Source: a virus. From it: a stretch of 64,000 nucleotides of DNA. Below the pieces are notes generated by a model. That model ran no database searches, was not told the DNA's origin, and saw only the letters and a program-made list of their open reading frames with translations. Shown here piece after piece: positions 8,865 through 57,133 of this stretch (the first letter of the stretch is position 1; the number at the start of each line of letters is the position of its first letter). Both the position numbers and the translations under genes were made by a program. The DNA is taken from positions 1-64,000 of the IMG/VR virus record IMGVR_UViG_3300038701_002504; one strand, written 5' to 3'.

Positions 8865-10067
8865 ATGAAAGTTTATCAAGTTGGCGGATGCGTCCGCGAC
8901 AAAATCCTTGGTCTTGAACCTAATGATATTGATTGGGTTGTGACTGGTTCAACACCAGAAGAAATGCTTTCTCTTGGATATAAACAAGTTGGAGCAGATT
9001 TTCCTGTGTTTCTTCACCCTGAAACAGGTGAAGAATACGCATTGGCTCGCAAAGAAATTTCAACAGGAGATGGATATCATGATTTCAGTGTTGAATTTGG
9101 TCCTCATGTGACAATTGAAGAAGATCTTGCTCGCCGTGATTTCACAATTAATTCAATAGCATATGACATTGAAAATGATGTTTATATTGATCCAATTGGT
9201 GGATATCGTGATTTAGAGAATCATATTCTTCGTGAAAACGATCTTTATAAGACAATGAAGGATGATCCAGTTCGACAACTGCGTGCTGCAAGGTTTCTTG
9301 CGAAGTTTCCATTTTTGAATGATAACATTCGAAGCATGGAATGGGCACCATCTCTTGTAAATGTAACACCTGAACGTGTTTATCTTGAACTTGAAAAGGC
9401 TTTGATGACTGTAAAGCCATCCAACTTTTTCAGGTTTTTGGTAAAGCATAATGCTGGTAAAACTTGGTTCAAGGAAATCTTTGATATGGTCGATGTTCCA
9501 CAGACTTACAAGTGGCACATGGAAGGTGATGTTTTTGAACATACTATGATGGTTCTGGATTCTGCTGCTCGTGCAAACGAGACTTTGGAAATCAGGTTTG
9601 CTGCTCTTACTCATGATTTTGGTAAGACAACAACACCAGATGATGTTCTACCAAGTCATTCAGGCCATGAAATGCGTGGTTATTACATGTTGGATGAGTT
9701 TTTCAATCGTTTGAAGGCTCCTACTCATGTAAGACATTCATCGAAGGTGACTGCTCGTTATCATACTCATATCCACAATTTTGACAAGTTGAAGCCAAAG
9801 ACCAAGGTCAAGATGTATATGGATATGAAAAATGTACAATACGCATGGGAAGTTGTAGCGTGGACTGCTTTTCATGACAACGAAGGTAAACTACCATATC
9901 GTCCTGGTTACCCAAATGCTCAATTGTTCATGGCAAGCATGAGAGAATTGGCGAAGTGGGACAAACTGACCCTGCATTATACTGTGGAGGAAGTTATGGC
10001 AATGAAGCCTGAGCGACGTAGCGAAGCTTTGTACAGGAAACTGATAAATGTAGCAAAAGCGCTGTAA
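8865..10067 (+). CDS. cca: CCA tRNA nucleotidyltransferase
   Basis: 400 residues, near the length of bacterial multifunctional CCA enzymes. The nucleotidyltransferase core is intact: GGCVRDKILG (7-16), NDIDWVV with the catalytic D-x-D (about 20-26), RRDFTINSIAYD (about 90-101), DPVRQLRAARF (about 136-146) and ERVYLELEKAL. The C-terminal half carries an HD domain (HTMMVLDSA, then HDFGK). The enzyme adds or repairs the 3' CCA of tRNAs. Both phage tRNAs here already encode CCA, so repair of degraded or nuclease-cleaved tRNA is the likelier role. A strong terminator follows. Confidence 0.95.
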   Translation: MKVYQVGGCVRDKILGLEPNDIDWVVTGSTPEEMLSLGYKQVGADFPVFLHPETGEEYALARKEISTGDGYHDFSVEFGPHVTIEEDLARRDFTINSIAYDIENDVYIDPIGGYRDLENHILRENDLYKTMKDDPVRQLRAARFLAKFPFLNDNIRSMEWAPSLVNVTPERVYLELEKALMTVKPSNFFRFLVKHNAGKTWFKEIFDMVDVPQTYKWHMEGDVFEHTMMVLDSAARANETLEIRFAALTHDFGKTTTPDDVLPSHSGHEMRGYYMLDEFFNRLKAPTHVRHSSKVTARYHTHIHNFDKLKPKTKVKMYMDMKNVQYAWEVVAWTAFHDNEGKLPYRPGYPNAQLFMASMRELAKWDKLTLHYTVEEVMAMKPERRSEALYRKLINVAKAL

Positions 10068-10094: not shown

Positions 10095-10120
10095 AACCCG
10101 CTTTAACCAGCGGGTTTTTT
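10095..10120 (+). terminator. Rho-independent terminator
   Basis: Stem AACCCGCT (10095-10102) with AGCGGGTT (10109-10116), 6-base loop, followed by a T-run. Separates the early cca unit from the late genes that start at 10163. Confidence 0.9.
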
Positions 10121-10126
10121 TATTTA

Positions 10127-10134
10127 TATAAATA
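10127..10134 (+). promoter_or_regulatory. Late promoter box
   Basis: Exact TATAAATA between the cca terminator and the first gene of a virion-gene operon, 29 bases before its ATG. Confidence 0.7.
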
Positions 10135-12059: not shown

Positions 12060-12420
12060 TTTTCTTTTATTCGCTGCAAAAAATTATGAAAATGTCTATT
12101 ATGACACGACAGAATTTTACGATGATTTGAAGCGATTTACTTATATTAAAAGACTTTTTAATCAATATGAAACTCGTGGCGATATCAAAGTAAATCTCAT
12201 ATTGAATCACATTATCATTCTATATAACGTCTTTGGTCCCCGAACAACAGAAATGCTTTTTCTTAAACTTGAAGGACAGGAATCTATGTTGAAAACATTC
12301 CTGGTTTATCTACAGAGAATGCCTGACCGTATCACAAATTTAGGTGTTAAATGTCGCATTATAAATAATGATGAGATACCAATTAATCATCAAATAATGG
12401 CAGAACTGGAAAAATTGTGA
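12037..12420 (+). CDS. Conserved T4-superfamily phage protein of unknown function
   Basis: 127 residues starting MLKIDETNFL, overlapping the previous gene by 23 bases. The pattern FAAKNY...TEFYDDLKRFTYIKRLF (about 13-40) and LILNHIIILYNVFG (about 54-67) is familiar from small proteins near structural genes in many T4-like and marine myoviruses, where it has no assigned role. Mostly helical. A GTGA overlap leads into the kinase-like gene. Confidence 0.6.
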   Translation: MLKIDETNFLLFAAKNYENVYYDTTEFYDDLKRFTYIKRLFNQYETRGDIKVNLILNHIIILYNVFGPRTTEMLFLKLEGQESMLKTFLVYLQRMPDRITNLGVKCRIINNDEIPINHQIMAELEKL

Positions 12421-13070
12421 TAAATTTTAAATCCTATTTAGCAGAATTAAACAAACCATTTGAATTGCGTAAATTCAAATCTGCTGTTGCTGACGTAAAA
12501 GATGTTGATACTCGCGATCCATCATGGCAGGGCACTTTACCTGAATTATTCTCTAAATATGGATTTGTTAATGTTGGCGACGGAAAATATGGAACTGTTT
12601 TTGTAAATTCAAAGTATCCATATGCAGTGAAAGTGTTTATGAAAGACACCGCATATTTAAAATTCATTCAGTTTGTGCTCAAGAATCAATCAAATCCATA
12701 TGTGCCGAAGATTCGTGGTAAAGTTGTAAAAATCAATGATATGTTTATGGCAATTCGTATGGAAAAATTATCTCCATCACATACGATTGGAAAAGATATA
12801 GCTCTTAAAGAATTTGTAGAAATGATACAAGATCCTGAGTATTTTTTACAGGGCAAATTAAATTTGATCACTATACATAATGAAGATAAGCATGCTATTA
12901 ATTTATGCAAGTTTTTATTAGCAAATGAAAATCTATTGGATATTCATTTGGGAAATATCATGATGAGAAGAAATCAACCAGTGTTGATCGACCCATTATA
13001 TAACTGGTATAAGGGTGCCCAATTCACAATGGATCCAAACGATATTTCAAATCTAAAAGATGTGTTTTAA
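12417..13070 (+). CDS. Protein-kinase-like protein with capsid-targeting-like N-terminus
   Basis: 217 residues with a GTG start at 12417 (GTGA overlap with the previous stop). The N-terminus INFKSYLAE matches the T4 capsid-targeting pattern and offers an L-A-E cleavage site at residue 10. Downstream are kinase-like elements in order: glycine-rich loop GDGKYGTVF (54-62), AVKVF with K72, a catalytic-loop-like DIHLGNIMM (D175, H177, N180) and VLIDP (D192) as the DFG equivalent. The fold is small for a kinase. If active, it would phosphorylate host proteins; if packaged, from the moment of injection. Both points are inference; the motif order is directly visible. Confidence 0.6.
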   Translation: MINFKSYLAELNKPFELRKFKSAVADVKDVDTRDPSWQGTLPELFSKYGFVNVGDGKYGTVFVNSKYPYAVKVFMKDTAYLKFIQFVLKNQSNPYVPKIRGKVVKINDMFMAIRMEKLSPSHTIGKDIALKEFVEMIQDPEYFLQGKLNLITIHNEDKHAINLCKFLLANENLLDIHLGNIMMRRNQPVLIDPLYNWYKGAQFTMDPNDISNLKDVF

Positions 13071-13558
13071 TGATTTCGTTTAAAGACTATCTTAAAGAAA
13101 ATCTTCTTCCCAAAAAATATATAGCTGTATATTTTACAGAAGAGACGAATAAAAAATTATATAATTATGCAATATCACAGAATTTTGATATATCATACAA
13201 TTGGGATAGAATAAAAATAGATCCAAAAAAATTCAAATTTCATTGTACGCTTTTTTATTCTAAAAATAGAATGGACATTGAGAATATAACTTATAAAGTG
13301 CCGCCTTTAAAAAGTAAAGTATTAGGATTAAGAGTTTTCGGTAATAAAAAAGATGTTTTGGTTCTAAGATTAGATAATGCATTCGGCGAATTAAGAAAAA
13401 AATATTTAGACATGGGTTTGAAAGACACTTTTCCTAAATGGCGTCCACATGTATCTGTTTCTTATAAATATGATAATAAAGAAGATATAGCAAGCGTAGC
13501 AAATTTACCAGATTTTGAACTGGTAGCTTCACATGTTACCATTGAGGATCATAAATGA
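13070..13558 (+). CDS. 2H phosphoesterase (Acb1-like) with capsid-targeting-like N-terminus
   Basis: 162 residues starting ISFKDYLKE (L-K-E at 8-10). Two H-x-T/S motifs define the 2H fold: FHCTLFYS with H58 and T60, and RPHVSVSY with H127 and S129. Length and motif contexts (H-x-T-x-x-Y-S and P-H-V/I-x-x-S-Y) resemble T4 Acb1 (gp57B), which degrades cyclic nucleotides made by CBASS defence; other 2H enzymes act on RNA 2',3'-cyclic ends. The gene overlaps the kinase-like gene in a TAATG junction. A packaged anti-CBASS enzyme is a hypothesis; the 2H assignment is solid. Confidence 0.7.
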   Translation: MISFKDYLKENLLPKKYIAVYFTEETNKKLYNYAISQNFDISYNWDRIKIDPKKFKFHCTLFYSKNRMDIENITYKVPPLKSKVLGLRVFGNKKDVLVLRLDNAFGELRKKYLDMGLKDTFPKWRPHVSVSYKYDNKEDIASVANLPDFELVASHVTIEDHK

Positions 13559-14058
13559 TAGTTGATATTTACCTTTTATATTCATTTGTTAGAAGACTTG
13601 TAACACCATTTAATAAATGGAAAGCTTATGATGATGGAACAATTGATGAGAATGGAAATATTCTAATTCCTAGAAAAGATCTTTCTGGTAATGCGAAAAA
13701 TAATTTTGGTCTATTTGACTTGCTTATCTTAAATTTGAAGAAACTTCTAGCCAAATTGCCAGGCGGATCAACTAAGATTGCCACATTTGGCGCGGCATTG
13801 TTTCTCATTAAAGAAGAGAAAAATATCACAGAAGATAATATTGAAGAAATTATTAACAGAATTCCGACTCTTTTAGAATCTCATATACGCGAAGCTAAAT
13901 TACTCGTTGAAGATGGAGCTCCTGCTGGTATTGTTGGTGGTGGAACAACTCCAATCACATCAAATAGCGTAGGAAATATTGCTCGAAAGAACGACAAATC
14001 TACTCTTCTTTTCAAAAAAACTGTAAAGAGAAAGAAGAAAAAAGATGAAGAGCTTTAA
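13555..14058 (+). CDS. Conserved phage protein of unknown function
   Basis: 167 residues. The N-terminus LLYSFVRRLVTPFNKWKAYDDG (about 6-27) is a recognisable signature of a T4-superfamily protein encoded near head genes. A helical middle follows, then an alanine/glycine-rich segment and a lysine-rich tail ending KRKKKKDEEL. It lacks the F-K-x-F/Y-L-x-E start of its neighbours although it lies between two genes that have it. A virion or assembly role is plausible from context. Confidence 0.5.
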   Translation: MIVDIYLLYSFVRRLVTPFNKWKAYDDGTIDENGNILIPRKDLSGNAKNNFGLFDLLILNLKKLLAKLPGGSTKIATFGAALFLIKEEKNITEDNIEEIINRIPTLLESHIREAKLLVEDGAPAGIVGGGTTPITSNSVGNIARKNDKSTLLFKKTVKRKKKKDEEL

Positions 14059-14641
14059 AGATTATCTTATAGAAGGTCGCGATGCTCCATTATATCATGG
14101 AACCGATTTTCATAGCGCAGCTCTTATTATTCAAACAAATAAAATGAAAGCTACAAACAGACATTACGATGGAAAAGGTAATGCTGTATCTATGACTAGA
14201 AATATGAAATATGCTTTTAGGTTTCCACTATGGGCTGGCGATGCTTATGATGACAATGATGTAGTAGTATTTGAATTAGATCAAAGAAAACTTGCACAAA
14301 GATATAAAATAGTTTCATTTGCATTTGATATTGGTACAGGAAGATCTATGGCAAGAGGGCCGAATGAAATGAGTGAATTTGAAGAAAGAGTGTACTCAAA
14401 CATCGCGAATATTAACAATTTTATAACAAAAATATATGTAAAAGATTTTAAAGCTATGAAGAAAGACTTAGAAAGACAGGCTCCGGACGGTTATATACCT
14501 TTATTAAATAATTGGAAATTATATGATCTTAAAACAAACAAATTCGTCAACAGTGTTAGCAAAAAATCTAACGATAAATTAACAGCATTAAAGATAAAAA
14601 ATAAGAAACTTGACCATGCTATGTCATGGGAATTAGGTTAA
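14045..14641 (+). CDS. ART-like protein with capsid-targeting-like N-terminus
   Basis: 198 residues, the same family as the nine-gene array at 38.8-44 kb but located 24 kb away next to the kinase-like and 2H genes. N-terminus KSFKDYLIEG (L-I-E before G), then LYHGT (Y17, H18, G19, T20), VSMTRN, FELDQRKLAQRYKI, and EFEERV as candidate catalytic glutamate. This order fits the ADP-ribosyltransferase fold (H ... S/T ... E). It starts inside the previous gene and ends just before the primase promoter. Target unknown. Confidence 0.65.
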   Translation: MKSFKDYLIEGRDAPLYHGTDFHSAALIIQTNKMKATNRHYDGKGNAVSMTRNMKYAFRFPLWAGDAYDDNDVVVFELDQRKLAQRYKIVSFAFDIGTGRSMARGPNEMSEFEERVYSNIANINNFITKIYVKDFKAMKKDLERQAPDGYIPLLNNWKLYDLKTNKFVNSVSKKSNDKLTALKIKNKKLDHAMSWELG

Positions 14642-19509: not shown

Positions 19510-21009
19510 ATGATTAATTTTAAAGAATTTTTAAATGAGCATATTGTAGTAGGGGATTTGAAAAAGTCTCCTACTGATTTGTATTATGTATCTCCAGGGA
19601 GGGATGACAAGTCAAAATTGTTCATCTATCCAAAAATCAAAGATATGCAATATGATTTTAAAATGGTATATACTGAAAAAGGTTTCGATGTCATTGATGA
19701 AGCTATATCTCTATGGGACAAGACAGAAAAATATCCATACCCAGAATTAAAAAAGATATTGATGTCAAAATCAAAAGAGATTATGCAAAATACATATCTA
19801 AAAGCTGAGGAAATTTTAGATAAGAATTTGGTGTTAGAAATTGAAAAACAGTTTAATAAACCCGAAAACATTCAACGCGCTATGGAAAGTCTGAGTTCAA
19901 GTATAACATATTCAGGATTTCTGAATAATTATGATTCATACAGAGATTATGCGAAGAAAAACACAAATTCTTATGGTAGAATAATCGTAACATTACAGTC
20001 AATATATAAAATTATCGTTAATACAAACACAAAATCTATATATCCTGAATCAAACCCTATTCAACTTGCTTCAAGAATTGGAAAAATAGGATACGATGGC
20101 CAAAGCAAACAGACGTATATTATTCCTATGTCTGAGGTTTCTATTGATTCTCCCAGAGAAATATATAAAATACTTCAATCATTGGTAAAAAAATATCCAG
20201 AATTAGCCAATTATTCATATATTGATGCTATGTCCAGATCACAAGAAAGAACTTTAATCAAAGATGTTCTTGATGGCGCAGGCGAAGTTGGCAAAATGAA
20301 CACTTCATATAATAACATGTTTTCTCGAAGAAATTCTATCACAGTCTATCATGGAACATCTGAAAAAATTTATAATGATTATATTAAAAATAGCGGATTA
20401 CAACCTGATAAAGGACACCATTATAGCGACAAAATTATGGGACATTCTGATAAAAATGTATATTTCACAGCAAATATAGGTGATGCTCGAAAATATGCAG
20501 TAAGAGCTTCTGGTGCAAGCTCTAGATCAATGGTTCTTGAAGTTAAAATTACTGATTTCGATAAAATCACATTTGATGAAGATAATATGTATGGCGCACT
20601 GAGAAGAATACCTGAAAAAATTATGAAAGAAATAAAAGTTAGATTTTACAATCTCTATCTTCAGAATGATACAATATGGCCATTTGAACACACAAAAGAA
20701 CATGTTGCAGACGTTGGTTTAGATCAAACAGAAATTTCTATTCATAGCTTAAAATACAATCTAGAAAAAAATCCTGGTAATATGAAATTGATAAAACCAC
20801 TATTAGATTTCATTGGATATTATGCTGTGAAAGGCTCAACATTTACTTTCGCATATAATGGAATTATCTCTCCACGCGATATTAAAGTGAAAGAGACATT
20901 TAAATCAAAAGCATATAAAGATTCTGGCGGAGAGGCGGGCGACTGGGAAACAAAGAATTTCAAAAAGAAATATTCAGGGATTTTGAAAAGTTTCAAATCA
21001 GGAAAATAA
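19510..21009 (+). CDS. Large ART-domain protein with capsid-targeting-like N-terminus (Alt analogue?)
   Basis: 499 residues. N-terminus INFKEFLNE (L-N-E at 8-10, followed by H). The first 270 residues are helical and unassigned. An ART-like domain starts at TVYHGTSEKIY (Y280, H281, G282, T283) and continues with VYFTANIGDARKYA (Y318), the H...Y pattern of PARP/diphtheria-toxin-type ADP-ribosyltransferases; the final glutamate cannot be placed confidently. In size and layout it parallels T4 Alt, a packaged ADP-ribosyltransferase trimmed by the head protease, but the sequence signature differs. A late box lies upstream. Confidence 0.6.
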   Translation: MINFKEFLNEHIVVGDLKKSPTDLYYVSPGRDDKSKLFIYPKIKDMQYDFKMVYTEKGFDVIDEAISLWDKTEKYPYPELKKILMSKSKEIMQNTYLKAEEILDKNLVLEIEKQFNKPENIQRAMESLSSSITYSGFLNNYDSYRDYAKKNTNSYGRIIVTLQSIYKIIVNTNTKSIYPESNPIQLASRIGKIGYDGQSKQTYIIPMSEVSIDSPREIYKILQSLVKKYPELANYSYIDAMSRSQERTLIKDVLDGAGEVGKMNTSYNNMFSRRNSITVYHGTSEKIYNDYIKNSGLQPDKGHHYSDKIMGHSDKNVYFTANIGDARKYAVRASGASSRSMVLEVKITDFDKITFDEDNMYGALRRIPEKIMKEIKVRFYNLYLQNDTIWPFEHTKEHVADVGLDQTEISIHSLKYNLEKNPGNMKLIKPLLDFIGYYAVKGSTFTFAYNGIISPRDIKVKETFKSKAYKDSGGEAGDWETKNFKKKYSGILKSFKSGK

Positions 21010-38729: not shown

Positions 38730-38737
38730 TATAAATA
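38730..38737 (+). promoter_or_regulatory. Late promoter box (plus strand)
   Basis: Exact TATAAATA 35 bases before the first gene of the ART-like array. It faces the minus-strand box at 38755; the two transcription units overlap at their starts. Confidence 0.65.
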
Positions 38738-38771: not shown

Positions 38772-39398
38772 ATGAACAGTTTTAAACAATTTCTCGAAGA
38801 AGGTAGAGATGCTCCTTTATATCATGGGACTGATACTCATGCTGCAATTCAAATCATTGATGCCGATACACTCGAAGGAAGAACCGACAACCATTCAAGA
38901 CTCGAGCCTTTAAATTCATGGGGCGAAAAGAAAAAAGAGTTAGTTGTAAATGTGAATCATTTCAAACCAAAAAAATATACAAAATTTAACGGTTCGTCTT
39001 TTTCTCGCGATATGAGGAGATCATTGCATTGGAGAGGCGGAGGACTGTGTTTTGAAGTAGATCAGAGAAAACTATCTCAAAGACATAAGTTAGTTCCTAT
39101 CAACATCTTTATGGCTATGGGTTATAATAAACATGCGAAGGACGAAGAACTTGCAGAAGAATTTGTGATTGGAGATATTAAAAACTTTAGACGATATATA
39201 ACAAGAATCATATTTCTAAAAGAATGGGATTTATCCACATTTTTATTAAATGCTCAATTCTCTTTAAACCCAGACAAACTTCTGGGTTTCAGATATTTTC
39301 TATATTCAGAAAAGAAAACATATGATGTAAAATCGAAAAAGGATTTTATTAATATGTTGAAAGATTTGAAAATTTATGAAAAGATTATGAATGGCTAA
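38772..39398 (+). CDS. ART-like array gene 1 with capsid-targeting-like N-terminus
   Basis: 208 residues, the longest in the array. NSFKQFLEEG (L-E-E before G) then LYHGT (Y17, H18, G19, T20). The second motif reads SSFSRD rather than SLTR, so the central residue differs, followed by FEVDQRKLSQRHKLV and LAEEFVIGDIKN. The first 30 residues after the H motif contain a long insertion rich in charged residues. Driven by the late box at 38730. Overlaps gp4 by 8 bases. Confidence 0.65.
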   Translation: MNSFKQFLEEGRDAPLYHGTDTHAAIQIIDADTLEGRTDNHSRLEPLNSWGEKKKELVVNVNHFKPKKYTKFNGSSFSRDMRRSLHWRGGGLCFEVDQRKLSQRHKLVPINIFMAMGYNKHAKDEELAEEFVIGDIKNFRRYITRIIFLKEWDLSTFLLNAQFSLNPDKLLGFRYFLYSEKKTYDVKSKKDFINMLKDLKIYEKIMNG

Positions 39399-39843
39399 GT
39401 ATAAACAAGGCGTCTTCAAACCGCTTAGACCAGAAAAATATAAGGGAGACCTTAAGAAGAACCCACCGGTGTATCGCTCAAGCTGGGAATTAAAGCTTAT
39501 GGTCAAATTGGACAATCACCCTGACGTGATCCAGTGGTCATCAGAAGGTATCGTAATTCCCTATAAGTCTCCAATCGATAATAAGTATCATAGATATTTT
39601 GTGGATTTCTATGTTAAGTTAAAAGATAAAGATGGAAATATACAGGAAATGATTATTGAAGTTAAACCATTGGGCCAAGTTATGGAACCAAAAAGAAGAA
39701 AGAATCAACAGGATAGAACTTTTCTACGTGAAGTAATGACCTGGGGAGTGAACCAAGCAAAATGGGATGCTGCTCGCGCTGCTGCAAAAAATAAAGGATG
39801 GAAATTTGAAATATTCACAGAGGATGATCTTAATGTCCTTTAA
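39391..39843 (+). CDS. 4: Head completion protein (T4 gp4-like)
   Basis: 150 residues, matching T4 gp4 (150). YRSSWELKLMVKLDNHP (about 28-44), VIPYKSPIDNKYHRYFVDFYV (about 55-75) and IIEVKP (about 87-92) form the TnsA-like nuclease-type fold (E..., D...E-V-K). In T4, gp4 completes DNA-filled heads with gp2. It has no capsid-targeting N-terminus and sits between array genes 1 and 2, in the T4 position next to gp2 and gp53. Confidence 0.85.
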   Translation: MAKYKQGVFKPLRPEKYKGDLKKNPPVYRSSWELKLMVKLDNHPDVIQWSSEGIVIPYKSPIDNKYHRYFVDFYVKLKDKDGNIQEMIIEVKPLGQVMEPKRRKNQQDRTFLREVMTWGVNQAKWDAARAAAKNKGWKFEIFTEDDLNVL

Positions 39844-40363
39844 ACAATTCCTAGAAGAAGGTAGAGATGCTCCTTTATATCATGTTACTCCATTGGATAA
39901 CTTTTTTGATATAGCTATGTCAAATAGACTAAATGCAAGTAATTTATGGACATATGGAGCTAAACCCACAGTATCATTTACTCGTAATTATAAATTTTGT
40001 TTCGAATTTGCCAGACAACATCTGGATACTGGAACAGGCCAATTGAGAGATACGAAAGATATCGCAATACTTGAAATCGATCAAAGAAGACTTTCACAGA
40101 GATATAAGATTATTCCTTATAGAGATTTAATTAATTTGGGTGATGGATCAAGACTACATTATAATGAATTTGAAGAATATATTCAGGGAGATGTGAAGAA
40201 TGTAAGCGACTATATTATAAAAACTCATATACCCGCAAGAGAATATTGGCATTCAAACGATGTTGCGTTATCGTATAAAAAGAAATACAGGAGATTTATA
40301 TCATTAGTAATGGACTTTAAACCCTGGGATACTAAATCAAGAAAGTTTATTGATGCCATATAG
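39833..40363 (+). CDS. ART-like array gene 2 with capsid-targeting-like N-terminus
   Basis: 176 residues from ATG 39833 inside the gp4 end; stop TAG. MSFKQFLEEG then LYHVT (Y16, H17, V18, T19): the glycine after the histidine is replaced by valine. Motif two is VSFTRN, motif three EIDQRRLSQRYKIIP, and the glutamate block is EFEEYIQGDVKN. A distinctive aromatic tail (REYWHS, then RRFISLVMDF) separates it from its relatives. Confidence 0.65.
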   Translation: MSFKQFLEEGRDAPLYHVTPLDNFFDIAMSNRLNASNLWTYGAKPTVSFTRNYKFCFEFARQHLDTGTGQLRDTKDIAILEIDQRRLSQRYKIIPYRDLINLGDGSRLHYNEFEEYIQGDVKNVSDYIIKTHIPAREYWHSNDVALSYKKKYRRFISLVMDFKPWDTKSRKFIDAI

Positions 40364-40862
40364 TTTCAAACAATTTCTTGAAGAGGGACGAGACGCTCCG
40401 TTATATCATAGCACTGCTTATCGTTCAGGTTGTATCATCTTTGAAGATAATGAAATACGCGCGAGAACATATCATATCAAAAAGTCCATGTTAGATGATA
40501 AAGCAAAAATAAAAAAAGCGTTCTCCAAGCGTGTTTTTGGTGGCTCTGATGAATATGTTGATGGTGTTGCAGGTGTTTCACTAACTCGTAATTTTAAGTT
40601 TGCAAAATCCTGGGGTGATATAATATTTGAAGTAGATCAGAAAAGATTAACTCAAAGATATAAGATTATTCCATTTAACTATTTTGTTGACCAGAGCAGT
40701 AAACCCGCAAATTTTAGAAAAGAAGCAGAAGAATTTGTAATTGGCAACATATTTCCTTTAAATAAATATCTTATAAAAATACATATAAGCGTTGATTATA
40801 TGTCTGAATTTGAAGAACGATATGGAAATAAACTTAAAGGAATTGAAGTTGTTGGGGTTTAA
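40353..40862 (+). CDS. ART-like array gene 3 with capsid-targeting-like N-terminus
   Basis: 169 residues from ATG 40353 (an in-frame TTG at 40350 is less likely). MPYSFKQFLEEG has two extra residues before the motif. LYHST (Y18, H19), GVSLTRN, FEVDQKRLTQRYKIIP and EAEEFVIGNI. Between motifs it has a lysine-rich insertion (KKSMLDDKAKIKKAF). Its 3' end overlaps the TTG start proposed for gene 4. Confidence 0.62.
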   Translation: MPYSFKQFLEEGRDAPLYHSTAYRSGCIIFEDNEIRARTYHIKKSMLDDKAKIKKAFSKRVFGGSDEYVDGVAGVSLTRNFKFAKSWGDIIFEVDQKRLTQRYKIIPFNYFVDQSSKPANFRKEAEEFVIGNIFPLNKYLIKIHISVDYMSEFEERYGNKLKGIEVVGV

Positions 40863-41355
40863 AGAATATTTATTAGAAGGACGAGATGCTCCTTTGTTTC
40901 ATGGTTCGTCATCAGGCAATGTAAACAACATGCTTGAAGAGAATATGATATCCTCGGAAACACTCCAGAAGATTGACGGAAAAAACCTAAAAGGTGTATC
41001 TCTTACAAGATCATATAAATTTGCATTAACTCATATTGGTCCAGCTTCATTTAAGCATGGCTATGACGTAATACTTGAATTAGATCAAAGACTTCTTTCT
41101 CAGAACTATAAGATTATTCCTTTTAATTGGTCTCCATCGTGGAAAGGCCCGCCTAAAGCAAGATATATGGATGATCTAGGTTCAGAGTTTGAAGAATTTG
41201 TGGTCGGTCCTATTCGTAATTTGAATAAGTATATTGTTAAAATACACGCATCACACGAAATCTATTATAATGCTTCACAGGAAACAAAAGATAGATCTTC
41301 ATTTTTATTGAAACATCCTAAACTCTTTATTGATAGAAAGTTTGTCAATGCTTAA
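40849..41355 (+). CDS. ART-like array gene 4 (probable TTG start)
   Basis: About 168 residues. No ATG precedes GFKEYLLEG closely; the nearest (40822) lies deep in gene 3 and would add 9 residues. A TTG at 40849, 8 bases after AAAGG (40836-40840), gives a start that aligns with the paralogues. Motif one is LFHGS, with F replacing the usual Y and S replacing T. GVSLTRS, LELDQRLLSQNYKIIP and EFEEFVVGPI follow. The cleavage-like site is L-L-E before G. Confidence 0.58.
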   Translation: MLGFKEYLLEGRDAPLFHGSSSGNVNNMLEENMISSETLQKIDGKNLKGVSLTRSYKFALTHIGPASFKHGYDVILELDQRLLSQNYKIIPFNWSPSWKGPPKARYMDDLGSEFEEFVVGPIRNLNKYIVKIHASHEIYYNASQETKDRSSFLLKHPKLFIDRKFVNA

Positions 41356-41884
41356 TTTCAAACAATACTTGGAAGAAGGTAGAGATGCTCCTTTATATCA
41401 TGCAACTGAGTACAGAGCTCTTTTGAATATTCTTATAACGAATAAATTGGAAGCCCTGAATTATCATGAGTTTAATAGTAAAATAAAAAAGAAACATAGA
41501 AATTCCTGGGGTGATGTGAAGATTATATCATTTACACGAAACATAAGATTTGCTAGAGCTTGGTTAAATCAATTAATGGGTTATGGACCTATACTTGAAC
41601 TAGATCAGAGAAAACTTGCGCAGAGATATAAATTTGTTCCATTTAACTTTTTTTCCTATGGTGCTAGAGTCGACACCGATGAACTTGGTATAGACTATGA
41701 TGGCGATTATGGTATGAATTTCCCATATAATCAATTTGAGGAAAATGTGATAGGTGATATTAAGAACCTCGATAAATATTTAACTAAAATAATAGTTGTA
41801 GATGATAGATGGAAATCCGATAAAATAATATCGTCACATCCTCTTTTATATGATCTAAAAACGAAAAGGTTTATCAATGCTTAA
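41348..41884 (+). CDS. ART-like array gene 5 with capsid-targeting-like N-terminus
   Basis: 178 residues from ATG 41348, in the shared AATGCTTAATTT junction with gene 4. LNFKQYLEEG then LYHAT (A for G). Motif two ISFTRN, motif three LELDQRKLAQRYKFVP, glutamate block QFEENVIGDIKN. A glycine/aspartate-rich loop (DYDGDYGMNFPYN) precedes the glutamates. Ends RFINA, the common C-terminal form. Confidence 0.65.
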   Translation: MLNFKQYLEEGRDAPLYHATEYRALLNILITNKLEALNYHEFNSKIKKKHRNSWGDVKIISFTRNIRFARAWLNQLMGYGPILELDQRKLAQRYKFVPFNFFSYGARVDTDELGIDYDGDYGMNFPYNQFEENVIGDIKNLDKYLTKIIVVDDRWKSDKIISSHPLLYDLKTKRFINA

Positions 41885-42383
41885 TTTTAAACAATTCCTA
41901 GAAGAAGGTAGAGATGCTCCTTTATATCACGGGACTGATGCAACACTTAAAATTCTTGAGACAAATACATTGAAAGGTACACGCAGCCATTCATATCAGA
42001 GCCTGATGATTGATAAGGATGGAGAAGCAAAAGGAGTTTCTCTTACAAGAAACATAAAAGTAGCTTCACAGTTTCAAAAATGGGCTGATCACAGCAATTA
42101 TGCAATCTTTGAGTTGGATCAGAAGAAACTTGCTCAGAATCATAAAATCATTCCTGTAAACTTCTGGGGAGCTCTGAAAGGTGAGCCCGCAAGATCAAAA
42201 TCAATTCCAAAAGATGAAGTGGGTTCTGAATATGAAGAATTTGTGATGGGTGATATTAAGAACCTCGATAAATATATCATAAGAATATTCATTTTTAGTA
42301 AGAAGAGTAAGTTGTATGGAAAGCCGAATGTTCTTCTTGTAAAGAAGAACGATCTCATACTTGGAAAGCATAGAAGAAGATGA
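41877..42383 (+). CDS. ART-like array gene 6 with capsid-targeting-like N-terminus
   Basis: 168 residues. LNFKQFLEEG, LYHGT, GVSLTRN, FELDQKKLAQNHKIIP and EYEEFVMGDIKN, the most complete match to the family consensus. The tail is basic and ends GKHRRR instead of the usual FINA, and the junction to gene 7 is a 4-base ATGA overlap, so this end differs from the other cassettes. Confidence 0.65.
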   Translation: MLNFKQFLEEGRDAPLYHGTDATLKILETNTLKGTRSHSYQSLMIDKDGEAKGVSLTRNIKVASQFQKWADHSNYAIFELDQKKLAQNHKIIPVNFWGALKGEPARSKSIPKDEVGSEYEEFVMGDIKNLDKYIIRIFIFSKKSKLYGKPNVLLVKKNDLILGKHRRR

Positions 42384-42937
42384 ACAGTTTTAAGCAATAT
42401 TTGGAAGAAGGTCGAGCTGGGCCTCTGTATCATGCTACGAATGTCGATAGAGCTTCGTTTATTGTGGGTGATAATAAAATAATGGCTAAAACGATACATA
42501 AGTTAAAGCCAGATTATAGAACAATAAATGGTGTTTCTCTTACACGCGATTATAAATTTGCGATACATTTCGGTTTTCATGAAATGAGATATTTTACTCT
42601 TGTTATATTTGAACTTGATCAAGCAAAACTTTCTCAAAAATTTAAAATAATGCCAATCAATTATTATAACACAACATTTCCAATAGAACAAGGGTTTAGA
42701 CCATATAAAGGTGCTAGAAGATCTCAAGGTCGTCACCTGCTGGGTGATGAGAACAATGAATCGGAAGAGTTTGTGCTAGGTAATATAAAAGATGTATCAA
42801 AATATATTGTAAAAATTCATGTATGTTCTGACTTAACAAAGGAAAGAATAGATGAACATTATCCAAGACTGGCGAAACATCCTAAACTTTGGTTTGCTGA
42901 AAAGAATAACGAAAAAGGTTATTTCTACAATGCTTAA
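42380..42937 (+). CDS. ART-like array gene 7 with capsid-targeting-like N-terminus
   Basis: 185 residues. NSFKQYLEEGRAGPLYHAT: the RDAP of the paralogues is RAGP here. GVSLTRD, FELDQAKLSQKFKIMP and SEEFVLGNIKD follow. A basic insertion (YKGARRSQGRH) lies before the glutamates. Ends GYFYNA at the shared AATGCTTAATTT junction. Confidence 0.63.
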   Translation: MNSFKQYLEEGRAGPLYHATNVDRASFIVGDNKIMAKTIHKLKPDYRTINGVSLTRDYKFAIHFGFHEMRYFTLVIFELDQAKLSQKFKIMPINYYNTTFPIEQGFRPYKGARRSQGRHLLGDENNESEEFVLGNIKDVSKYIVKIHVCSDLTKERIDEHYPRLAKHPKLWFAEKNNEKGYFYNA

Positions 42938-43517
42938 TTTCAAACAATACTTGGAAGAAGGACGAGATGCTCCACTTTATCATACTACAGATGAATCTTA
43001 TATGCGCTACATCATCGAAAAAAATTCAATAAAAGCGAAAACAGAACATCAAGTTGGTTATAGACCTGGTAATAGATCAGGTAATAAATGGAAAGATGTG
43101 ATATCTCTTACACGTTCTATAAAATTTGCTCATCGTTGGGGAGAAAGAAAAGGTTCTGGTTATTATTTTATATTTGAACTAGATCAGAGAAAACTTTCTC
43201 AGAGACATAAATTTGTTCCCTATAACCATTTTGGCGATCATTATTATAATGACGAAAAAGGTGCAGCTCGTAGAATGAATGATGTTACTGATTTTAATTT
43301 TCCTATTAATCAATATGAGGAGAATATTATTGGAGATATCAAAAATTTAAATCAATATTTAACTAAAATAATATTATCCGAAAAATTATATAATGGATAT
43401 TTTTCAGAAAAAAATTCAGATAGACAAGATGCAGTTATTAAATATGGAAAAGAAGTAGTGTATCATAAACTGTTATGGTATAATGGAAAATTCATCAATG
43501 CTCATTATTATAAGTAG
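42930..43517 (+). CDS. ART-like array gene 8 with capsid-targeting-like N-terminus
   Basis: 195 residues from ATG 42930; stop TAG. LNFKQYLEEG, LYHTT, ISLTRS, FELDQRKLSQRHKFVP and QYEENIIGDIKN. Closest to gene 5: the first 33 bases of the two genes are nearly identical, and both have NFP-type residues ahead of QxEEN. The tail carries an extra helical region (ARRMND, then SEKNSDRQDAVIK). Confidence 0.65.
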   Translation: MLNFKQYLEEGRDAPLYHTTDESYMRYIIEKNSIKAKTEHQVGYRPGNRSGNKWKDVISLTRSIKFAHRWGERKGSGYYFIFELDQRKLSQRHKFVPYNHFGDHYYNDEKGAARRMNDVTDFNFPINQYEENIIGDIKNLNQYLTKIILSEKLYNGYFSEKNSDRQDAVIKYGKEVVYHKLLWYNGKFINAHYYK

Positions 43518-43523
43518 GAATCA

Positions 43524-43988
43524 ATGAATAACTTTAAACAATTCTTAGAAGAAGGTCGCGATGCTCCTTTATATCATGGAACATATGCTGAAGCAGCTGA
43601 TGAAATTATAAAAGATAACACTATGATAGCCTATACAAATCACGGAAGAAAAGTAACTTCATTTTCTTATTATTCAAAAAATTTTAGAGGTAAAGTTGAG
43701 CAGGATGGCATATCTCTTACGCGTGATATTCGCTTTGCATGGTCGTGGAATGGACAAGTAGTATTTGAACTTGACCAAAGAAAGCTTGCGCAAACTCATA
43801 AGATTGTTCCCATTAAGATAGAAGGTGTTTTAAGAGGAAAAAATCGAAATGCTTTTATGCATATGGCAGAAGAATTTGTAATCGGACCTATTAAAAACTT
43901 TGATAAATACTTAATAAGAATTCATTTAAAAAAAGAATGGACTTATCCAGAATCTTTATTAAAACATCCTCTAATTAAGTGGCATTAA
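43524..43988 (+). CDS. ART-like array gene 9 with capsid-targeting-like N-terminus
   Basis: 154 residues, the shortest. NNFKQFLEEG, LYHGT, GISLTRD, FELDQRKLAQTHKIVP and MAEEFVIGPIKN. It lacks the C-terminal FINA block, ending LIKWH where the gp2 gene begins (TAATG), so its tail may have been trimmed by the array boundary. Separated from gene 8 by 6 bases, the only array junction without overlap. Confidence 0.63.
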   Translation: MNNFKQFLEEGRDAPLYHGTYAEAADEIIKDNTMIAYTNHGRKVTSFSYYSKNFRGKVEQDGISLTRDIRFAWSWNGQVVFELDQRKLAQTHKIVPIKIEGVLRGKNRNAFMHMAEEFVIGPIKNFDKYLIRIHLKKEWTYPESLLKHPLIKWH

Positions 43989-44599
43989 TGACATCATTAC
44001 TCTTTACAAAAGTATTAGAAAAAGCAGCAAGATCAGGAAACCCGAAATTCGGATCTGTTGAATTGCGAGATTTCCTGCGTGATAAAGCTTTGGCAGCTAC
44101 ATCTCGTAATGTGAGCAGTAAAAGATTCGTTGAGACAAAGAAAGCAAAAGCAAATGTAGTCACAACAATCAAACCTGGAACAATGGTTTGTTATTTCTAT
44201 GATGCGAAACATAAAGCTACATTACCATATTATGATAAATTTCCAGTTGGATTTGTTATTGATGTTCAAAAAGATTATAATTTATTCTTAAATCTGCATT
44301 ACTTACCGCCGATTTTTAGAGCTAGATTAATGGATGCATTATACGATTTATTAAATAATCAAAAATATGACGACACTACAAAGCTTAAAATGTCATATGA
44401 CATTTTAAGAAGTGCTGCTAAATTTAAATATTTTAAACCGTGTATAAAAAAACATTTACATAATCGAATACAAAGTCATATGATTCAAATAGATGTAAGA
44501 GAGTGGGATTATGTGGCATTTTTACCTTTAAATCGTTTTTCTGGTGCAAATCAAAGAAAAGTGTGGGATGACTCAATTAAGATCATTAATAAGTCTTGA
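43988..44599 (+). CDS. 2: DNA end protector protein (T4 gp2-like)
   Basis: 203 residues from ATG 43988 (a GTG at 43979 is less likely). TMVCYFYDAKHKATLPYYDKFP (about 64-85) and LNLHYLPPIFRARLMDALYDL (about 101-121) are hallmarks of the gp2 family, which caps packaged DNA ends against RecBCD and completes heads. Position next to gp4 and before gp53 mirrors T4 gene order. Overlaps the convergent endonuclease by 27 bases at the 3' end. Confidence 0.75.
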   Translation: MTSLLFTKVLEKAARSGNPKFGSVELRDFLRDKALAATSRNVSSKRFVETKKAKANVVTTIKPGTMVCYFYDAKHKATLPYYDKFPVGFVIDVQKDYNLFLNLHYLPPIFRARLMDALYDLLNNQKYDDTTKLKMSYDILRSAAKFKYFKPCIKKHLHNRIQSHMIQIDVREWDYVAFLPLNRFSGANQRKVWDDSIKIINKS

Positions 44600-56309: not shown

Positions 56310-56696
56310 ATGAGACAAGTAATATACAGAGACCTTAAAAAGTCATTCGACAAACATCCTGTGAGTAATGATCTTCTCACAATATCCGAAGAGGATGCTG
56401 TAAAAGACTCTATTATGAATATTGTCTTCACATCTCCGTATGAGAGATATCGTAATCCAAGATTTGGCGCAGGAATTCCTGCTGATTTGTTTGAAAATTT
56501 GAGCCCACAGACCGAATACCAAGTAAAGAACCGTATTGAGAATGCAATTAATACATACGAGCCACGTGCTATTCTTCAGAATGTTGCTGTTGCAGCAAAT
56601 CTAGATCAGAATAATTATGTTGTGAGTATTCAATTCCGCGTGAGAAACAGTTTTGAAATTATTACTGTACAGAATATTCTAAGGAGAATACGATGA
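56310..56696 (+). CDS. 25: Baseplate wedge protein (T4 gp25-like)
   Basis: 128 residues (T4 gp25 is 132). IVFTSPYERYRNPRFGAGIPADLFE (about 38-62) and RIENAINTYEPRAIL (about 74-88) are diagnostic of the gp25/lysozyme-like wedge family (also TssE). gp25 with gp6 and gp53 forms the core of the wedge. Overlaps the next gene by 4 bases. Confidence 0.92.
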   Translation: MRQVIYRDLKKSFDKHPVSNDLLTISEEDAVKDSIMNIVFTSPYERYRNPRFGAGIPADLFENLSPQTEYQVKNRIENAINTYEPRAILQNVAVAANLDQNNYVVSIQFRVRNSFEIITVQNILRRIR

Positions 56697-57133
56697 CATT
56701 TAAAGAGTATCTAACAGAGCTATTCGACAGACCTGCCAAAATCTATACACTTGCTGATAATTTGACGGACAGGGAAGCCATATTCACTGTTGGAAATAAC
56801 AAGTACAGTATATATTTAAGTAAGGAACCCATCAGAAAAATCGTATGGAACGTAACATTTGCTATTATAGAAATAGATGGTATGCCTGTGGGTGGTATAG
56901 ATAGCATTAAAACAACAAATCTGAATGTTGATAAAAATGTTGTATTCGCAACAGTAATTAAGTTTATTGAGTCACATCACAGAAAAGAAGATACATATAA
57001 ATTTACCACATGGAAGATTGAAAAGTCGCGCATTAGACTTTATGATACATTATCCAAAAGATTGGCAAAAAAATATAATATGAAAGTAGAGAAATCAGTA
57101 TTTGGAAATGTTATTGAATGGCAATTGTCATAA
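56693..57133 (+). CDS. Hypothetical protein with capsid-targeting-like N-terminus
   Basis: 146 residues starting TFKEYLTELF (L-T-E at 7-9, followed by L). The remainder is beta-rich in the first half (KYSIYLSKEPIRKIVWNVTFAIIEID) and ends in a basic helical part. No enzyme motif is visible. It lies between gp25 and gp6, in a place that varies between T4-like phages. The cleavage-site residue after E is L rather than G, so processing is less certain than in the array. Confidence 0.5.
   Translation: MTFKEYLTELFDRPAKIYTLADNLTDREAIFTVGNNKYSIYLSKEPIRKIVWNVTFAIIEIDGMPVGGIDSIKTTNLNVDKNVVFATVIKFIESHHRKEDTYKFTTWKIEKSRIRLYDTLSKRLAKKYNMKVEKSVFGNVIEWQLS

Follow-up and report, generated by a model that had tools for sequence, protein, structure and literature searches.

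Small cyclic nucleotides carry the signals of CBASS and related systems early in an infection, and a phage that brings a degrading enzyme along would alter the timing of this arms race. The gene at 13070-13558, originally predicted to encode an Acb1-type 2H phosphoesterase that may be pre-loaded into the virion, raises the question of whether such an enzyme is carried into the host or is made there. The 64,000-nucleotide stretch of DNA that was analysed (the window; Table 1) belongs to a virus record of 109,508 bp. The phage is a member of the T4 superfamily (gp23, E = 1.4e-130), and its closest isolate by gp23 is Rhizobium phage RHph_I1_18 (66%). The reading that we favor, with a probability of about 0.52, is that an Acb1-family 2H enzyme is made late, packaged by means of a T4-type capsid-targeting sequence (CTS), processed and injected, and that it would degrade CBASS-type signals.

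The open reading frame is real, as its ATG overlaps the stop codon of the upstream gene (TAATG), and no alternative start codon was found ahead of the first strand; thus, the leader MISFKDYLKE belongs to the Acb1-like protein. The product matched the Pfam Acb1 profile (PF23474) with 43.8 bits against a cut-off of 27 (E = 2.8e-11) and also matched phrog_755, and NCBIfam gave nothing for Acb1. Membership of the LigT/2'-5' RNA ligase family was ruled out by score (PF13563, 21.7 bits, below the cut-off of 27). An AlphaFold2 model of the product (pLDDT 88.7, pTM 0.81) was nearest to FBB1 Acb1 (7t26; Foldseek E = 6e-8; Z 15.6, rmsd 2.3, 134 residues aligned), and the next fold matches were the BCSR5 phosphodiesterase (Z ~14) and a plant cyclic phosphodiesterase and LigT (Z ~10-11). 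In sequence as in fold, the best PDB matches were Acb1 (7t26/7t27) and 9q2g/9q2y. The H58-x-T60 and H127-x-S129 motifs are both present and align with H44/T46 and H113/T115 of T4 Acb1 as a catalytic tetrad with an equal spacing of 69 residues, and Y12, F107 and E141 of T4 Acb1 correspond to Y17, F121 and E159 in the alignment (T4 residues from PMC9117128). Furthermore, all 45 homologues retain H58 and T60, and serine at position 129 is the rule in the clade. Profile, fold and active-site alignment all back the Acb1-type 2H assignment, and on sequence and model the product is a divergent Acb1.

Table 1. Features of the acb1 region and other tagged genes (positions of the window; the last tagged gene by position in the record)
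Feature	Position	Strand	Remarks
Acb1-like 2H phosphoesterase, 162 aa	13070..13558	+	PF23474 profile, fold, tetrad
Leader MISFKDYLKE, predicted CTS, codons 1-10	13070..13099	+	Residues 4, 7, 8 and 10 as in the T4 IPIII CTS (PMC9026906); predicted cleavage after E10
Intrinsic-terminator-like hairpin	10095..10116	+	Just upstream of the putative late promoter at 10127..10134
Putative T4-type late promoter TATAAATA	10127..10134	+	36 nt before 10163, first gene of the acb1 operon
Second TATAAATA	12360..12367	+	57 nt upstream of the tagged kinase-like gene that precedes acb1
Kinase-like protein (T7 gp0.7-type), leader MINFKSYLAE, GTG start	12417..13070	+	phrog_15752, E = 3.5e-10
Untagged gene between acb1 and the ART-like gene, no function assigned	13555..14058	+	phrog_18642 / phrog_2086
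ADP-ribosyltransferase (ART)-fold protein, leader MKSFKDYLIE then GRDAPLYHGT	14045..14641	+	AlphaFold model matches DarT and Tpt1
499-aa protein, leader MINFKEFLNE; weak PARP/ART-like match in second half	19510..21009	+	Pfam PARP, E = 0.01, below cut-off
Putative late promoter TATAAATA	38730..38737	+	42 nt before the tagged ART array
Nine tagged ART-fold paralogues in one array, leader MxxFKxFLEEGRDAPLYH	38772..43988	+	Directly ahead of the DNA end protector gene
146-aa protein, leader MTFKEYLTE, amid baseplate genes	56693..57133	+	
Small tagged protein right after the portal gene	record 86658-86969		

The T4 CTS comprises ten residues and is cleaved after L/I-x-E; T4 mutants showed that residues 4 and 7 act in capsid targeting and residues 8 and 10 in processing (PMC9026906). 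The N-terminus MISFKDYLKE is as the original prediction described it and fits the T4 CTS (F4, Y7, L8 and E10); for comparison, T4 ipIII starts with MKTYQEFIAE and ipI with MKTFKEFTST. A strict form of the leader pattern (F/Y/L at 4 and 7, aliphatic or F at 8, E at 10) was found in this genome at 14 of 167 gene starts compared with 0 of 637 internal methionines, and in 16 of 27,912 internal 10-mers (5.7e-4 each), so that the claimed targeting pattern occurs at gene starts well beyond chance. Seventeen proteins of the record, Acb1 included, begin with the leader, most commonly in the form MxxFKx(F/Y)LxE, and several kinds of mature part that look unrelated follow it. A closely related pattern picks only 4 of 270 T4 genes, namely ipI, ipII and ipIII, which are known T4 internal proteins, and gp61.1. 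Since the first ten residues of this Acb1-like enzyme match the T4 head-loading tag, injection is probable, and the enzyme probably enters the host with the phage DNA rather than being produced afterwards.

Two T4 genes deserve mention here. Gene 61.1 (L027, 18966-19130) starts with MKTFKEFIKED and may encode an unrecognised internal head protein. Gene 57B, which encodes Acb1 (L028, 23952-24410), starts with MMEFKDF, in which positions 4 and 7 are both F and a cleavage site is absent, and is a neighbour of ipI; the contrast originally drawn with T4, where the enzyme was said to be made after infection, is therefore a matter of degree. We considered T4 Acb1 as a packaged protein and do not claim it, since the Serratia homologue is without F7.

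A T4-type prohead protease (PF03420, E = 2.8e-39) is encoded at record 89368-89808, and the L-T-E↓A of T4 gp23 corresponds to L-S-E↓A in the gp23 of this phage. At record 84961-92204, genes for the portal, small core proteins, the protease, the scaffold and gp23 follow one another in a T4-like order; profiles confirmed the protease and gp23, and the others were assigned by position and sequence resemblance. The octamer TATAAATA, which is the core of T4 late promoters, lies 22-62 nt upstream of gene starts in 17 of 32 occurrences here and in 22 of 32 in T4, while AT-rich control octamers of similar abundance gave 0-4 at equal distance, most of them 1-4 of 19-28; ATAAATAT is an unfair control because it overlaps the TATAAATA motif. 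Late-type sites also precede genes of the gp18, gp19, portal, scaffold and gp23 regions, and the acb1 operon sits behind putative late promoters (Table 1). Several relatives have a gene for a PAAR spike-tip protein immediately ahead of acb1; this protein is a late component of the virion (L016, 3599-3991; L012, 1570-1869).

A single-protein search of viral contigs gave no close relative, and searches of IMG/VR with closer alignments gave 12 loci (A2) and 60 loci (A3). F/Y/L at position 4 together with F/Y at position 7 is kept in 37 of 45 distinct Acb1 homologues, and the full motif including E10 in 13 of them, for example MKTFKEYLKE (L020), MKSFRTFMEE (L019), MKSFSDFLAE (L065) and MLNFSSYLIE (L067). 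Mean enzyme identity in this set is ~43%; thus, the leader persists despite much divergence. In about half of the 45 homologues, position 10 is occupied by K, S or some other residue and the linker is missing; here the segment may be unprocessed, non-targeting or simply an N-terminal helix of the enzyme. In another viral contig (G001), the Acb1 homologue starts with MKTLKEFMAK, while six other proteins bear perfect leaders (L091-L097, 112412-132781), including one of 408 aa and one with a HAD-type-like start. The Acb1 of phiM19 starts with MLTLREFLSH, yet almost no other leader proteins are present in that phage. The idea that every F4/F7 Acb1 is packaged was rejected, since many are without E10 and phiM19 is without other leaders. 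RHph_I1_18 and Ochrobactrum phage OC have a leaderless Acb1, and acb1 of RHph_I1_18 adjoins clamp-loader genes, in contrast to the putatively late operon here.

These data bear on the possibility that the enzyme is produced inside the infected cell as in T4, and that its N-terminal ten residues form an amphipathic helix of the enzyme and no targeting signal. We consider this rather unlikely. It would agree with the many homologues that keep F/L4 and F/Y7 without the cleavage glutamate or linker, with the segment in phiM19, and with the AlphaFold2 model, in which a helix is predicted with moderate confidence at residues 4-10, ahead of the first strand (E15-22). However, the same type of segment begins apparently unrelated proteins in this genome as well as the T4 internal proteins, the alignment of solved Acb1 structures to this protein starts only at residue 12-14, the Acb1 proteins of OC, RHph and the T4 group manage without the leader, and the acb1 operon has late-type promoters. 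The predicted packaging is independently supported by the leader on 16 other proteins, the T4-type prohead protease, the putative late promoters and the recurrence of the leader in distant homologues.

The tag marks 16 further candidates in this genome, mostly without a known role, and if the enzyme is indeed brought in by the phage, the tag would offer a simple sequence-only route to further effectors that a phage injects. The tagged T7 gp0.7-type kinase-like protein immediately upstream of acb1 suggests a virion-delivered kinase. The ART-fold paralogues number 12 (the nine of the array, the one at 14045-14641, and two at record 77689-78246 and 78648-79160) and share a near-identical leader, MxxFKxFLEEGRDAPLYH; as one family, they count as one instance of the shared leader. 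The ART-fold proteins match DarT and Tpt1 with Z about 10 (Tpt1/KptA, Z about 10.5) and keep the invariant E-E pair. The array adjoins the DNA end protector gene at 43979-44599. The sole match of the member at 14045 in the phage collection was Bacillus phage SP-15.

The Acb1-type assignment of the original prediction held, and there is more doubt about the substrate than that prediction implied, as the product has no counterpart of the C-terminal lid with which FBB1 Acb1 covers its ligand. The product terminates three residues past E159, the lid tryptophan (W147) has no counterpart, and the position of W74 in T4 Acb1 is occupied by R88. With the tetrad and three of the ligand contacts aligned and the lid missing, support is good for the chemistry and weaker for the substrate; the absence of the lid tryptophan leaves the exact substrate uncertain, and a claim of exact cyclic-dinucleotide specificity was dropped for this reason. 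Judged from the missing lid and from R88, the specificity for cyclic oligonucleotides could differ.

The missing cyclic-dinucleotide lid would also suit a packaged RNA-repair enzyme, in which the 2H domain would act on cleaved tRNA by opening its 2',3'-cyclic phosphates and the Tpt1/DarT-like ARTs encoded nearby would remove 2'-phosphates. Related phage proteins carry the name RNA ligase, the tagged ARTs resemble Tpt1/KptA, KptA-2H pairs are known from RNA repair (PMC9503650), and a tRNA nucleotidyltransferase gene lies at 8865-10067. We nevertheless judge RNA repair improbable: profile and fold are clearly nearer Acb1 than LigT, the tRNA nucleotidyltransferase gene belongs to a separate unit behind a terminator, the ARTs match DarT too and keep their E-E pair, and the base-stacking residues Y17 and F121 are retained. 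Equally doubtful is a role against another nucleotide signal (e.g. type III CRISPR, Thoeris-like or linear 2'-5' signals) instead of CBASS, which would accord with the missing lid, the weak conservation of E159 in the clade and the varied substrates of 2H enzymes (PMC9503650), since the best match is Acb1 and FBB1 Acb1 takes no rings of more than three bases (PMC9117128).

In the favored reading of a packaged Acb1-family enzyme, acb1 would be expressed at a late stage, along with the genes of other proteins bound for the head, and the first ten residues, as a T4-type CTS, would draw the enzyme into the prohead core. The gp21 prohead protease probably cuts after Glu10, and the mature enzyme would then begin at N11, six residues before Tyr17, the counterpart of the base-stacking Tyr12 of T4 Acb1. 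Injected with the DNA, this enzyme would cleave 3'-5' cyclic di- or trinucleotide signals of the CBASS type within minutes of entering the next host and could thereby protect the phage from CBASS. The broader proposal, to which we give about an even chance, is that T4-superfamily phages deliver a ready-made anti-signalling enzyme in the capsid by means of a removable ten-residue tag, within a larger pre-loaded set (the kinase-like protein, Acb1 and a dozen ART-fold enzymes), and that alarm nucleotides would be degraded before phage gene expression.

Our literature search for virion-packaged CBASS inhibitors and for a CTS on anti-defence proteins returned only the T4 internal-protein literature and PMC9503650, and no description of a free-standing Acb1 with a removable T4-type CTS was found in the literature searched. 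Acb1 with a T4-type tag is a new combination of two known parts. The first part resembles T4 and FBB1 Acb1 (gene 57B; 7t26, 7t27) in its 2H fold, its HxT/HxT-type tetrad with 69-residue spacing and its counterparts of Y12, F107 and E141. It differs from them in sequence (~26% identity to T4 Acb1), in the HxS form of the second motif, in the absence of the C-terminal W147 lid, in a 9-residue insertion before the first motif, in the cleavable-type leader and in the putatively late operon. The phosphodiesterase of Burkholderia phage BCSR5 (9q2g, 9q2y) also has an Acb1-like fold (Z about 14), with 14-15% identity and with the lid present in its structure. Virion delivery of 2H domains was predicted before by Iyer and colleagues, for domains fused to MuF or portal proteins and thought to be packaged against oligonucleotide signalling (PMC9503650); there the domain is part of a structural protein, whereas here it is a free enzyme with a tag predicted to be removable. 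An Acb1 profile built here matched the Pam3 portal protein towards its C terminus (8hds, residues 501-592, E = 8e-4), a possible virion-borne 2H domain. The second part recalls T4 IPI, IPII, IPIII and Alt, which have a leader of ten residues; in IPII and IPIII, positions 4, 7 and 8 of the leader are hydrophobic and position 10 is Glu. IPI and IPIII are anti-defence proteins of T4 delivered through the CTS (PMC9391042). The mature parts of the T4 internal proteins are unrelated to 2H enzymes, and IPI is known to act on the GmrSD restriction enzyme rather than on a signalling system, while T4 Alt is an ART, like the tagged ART-fold proteins found here.
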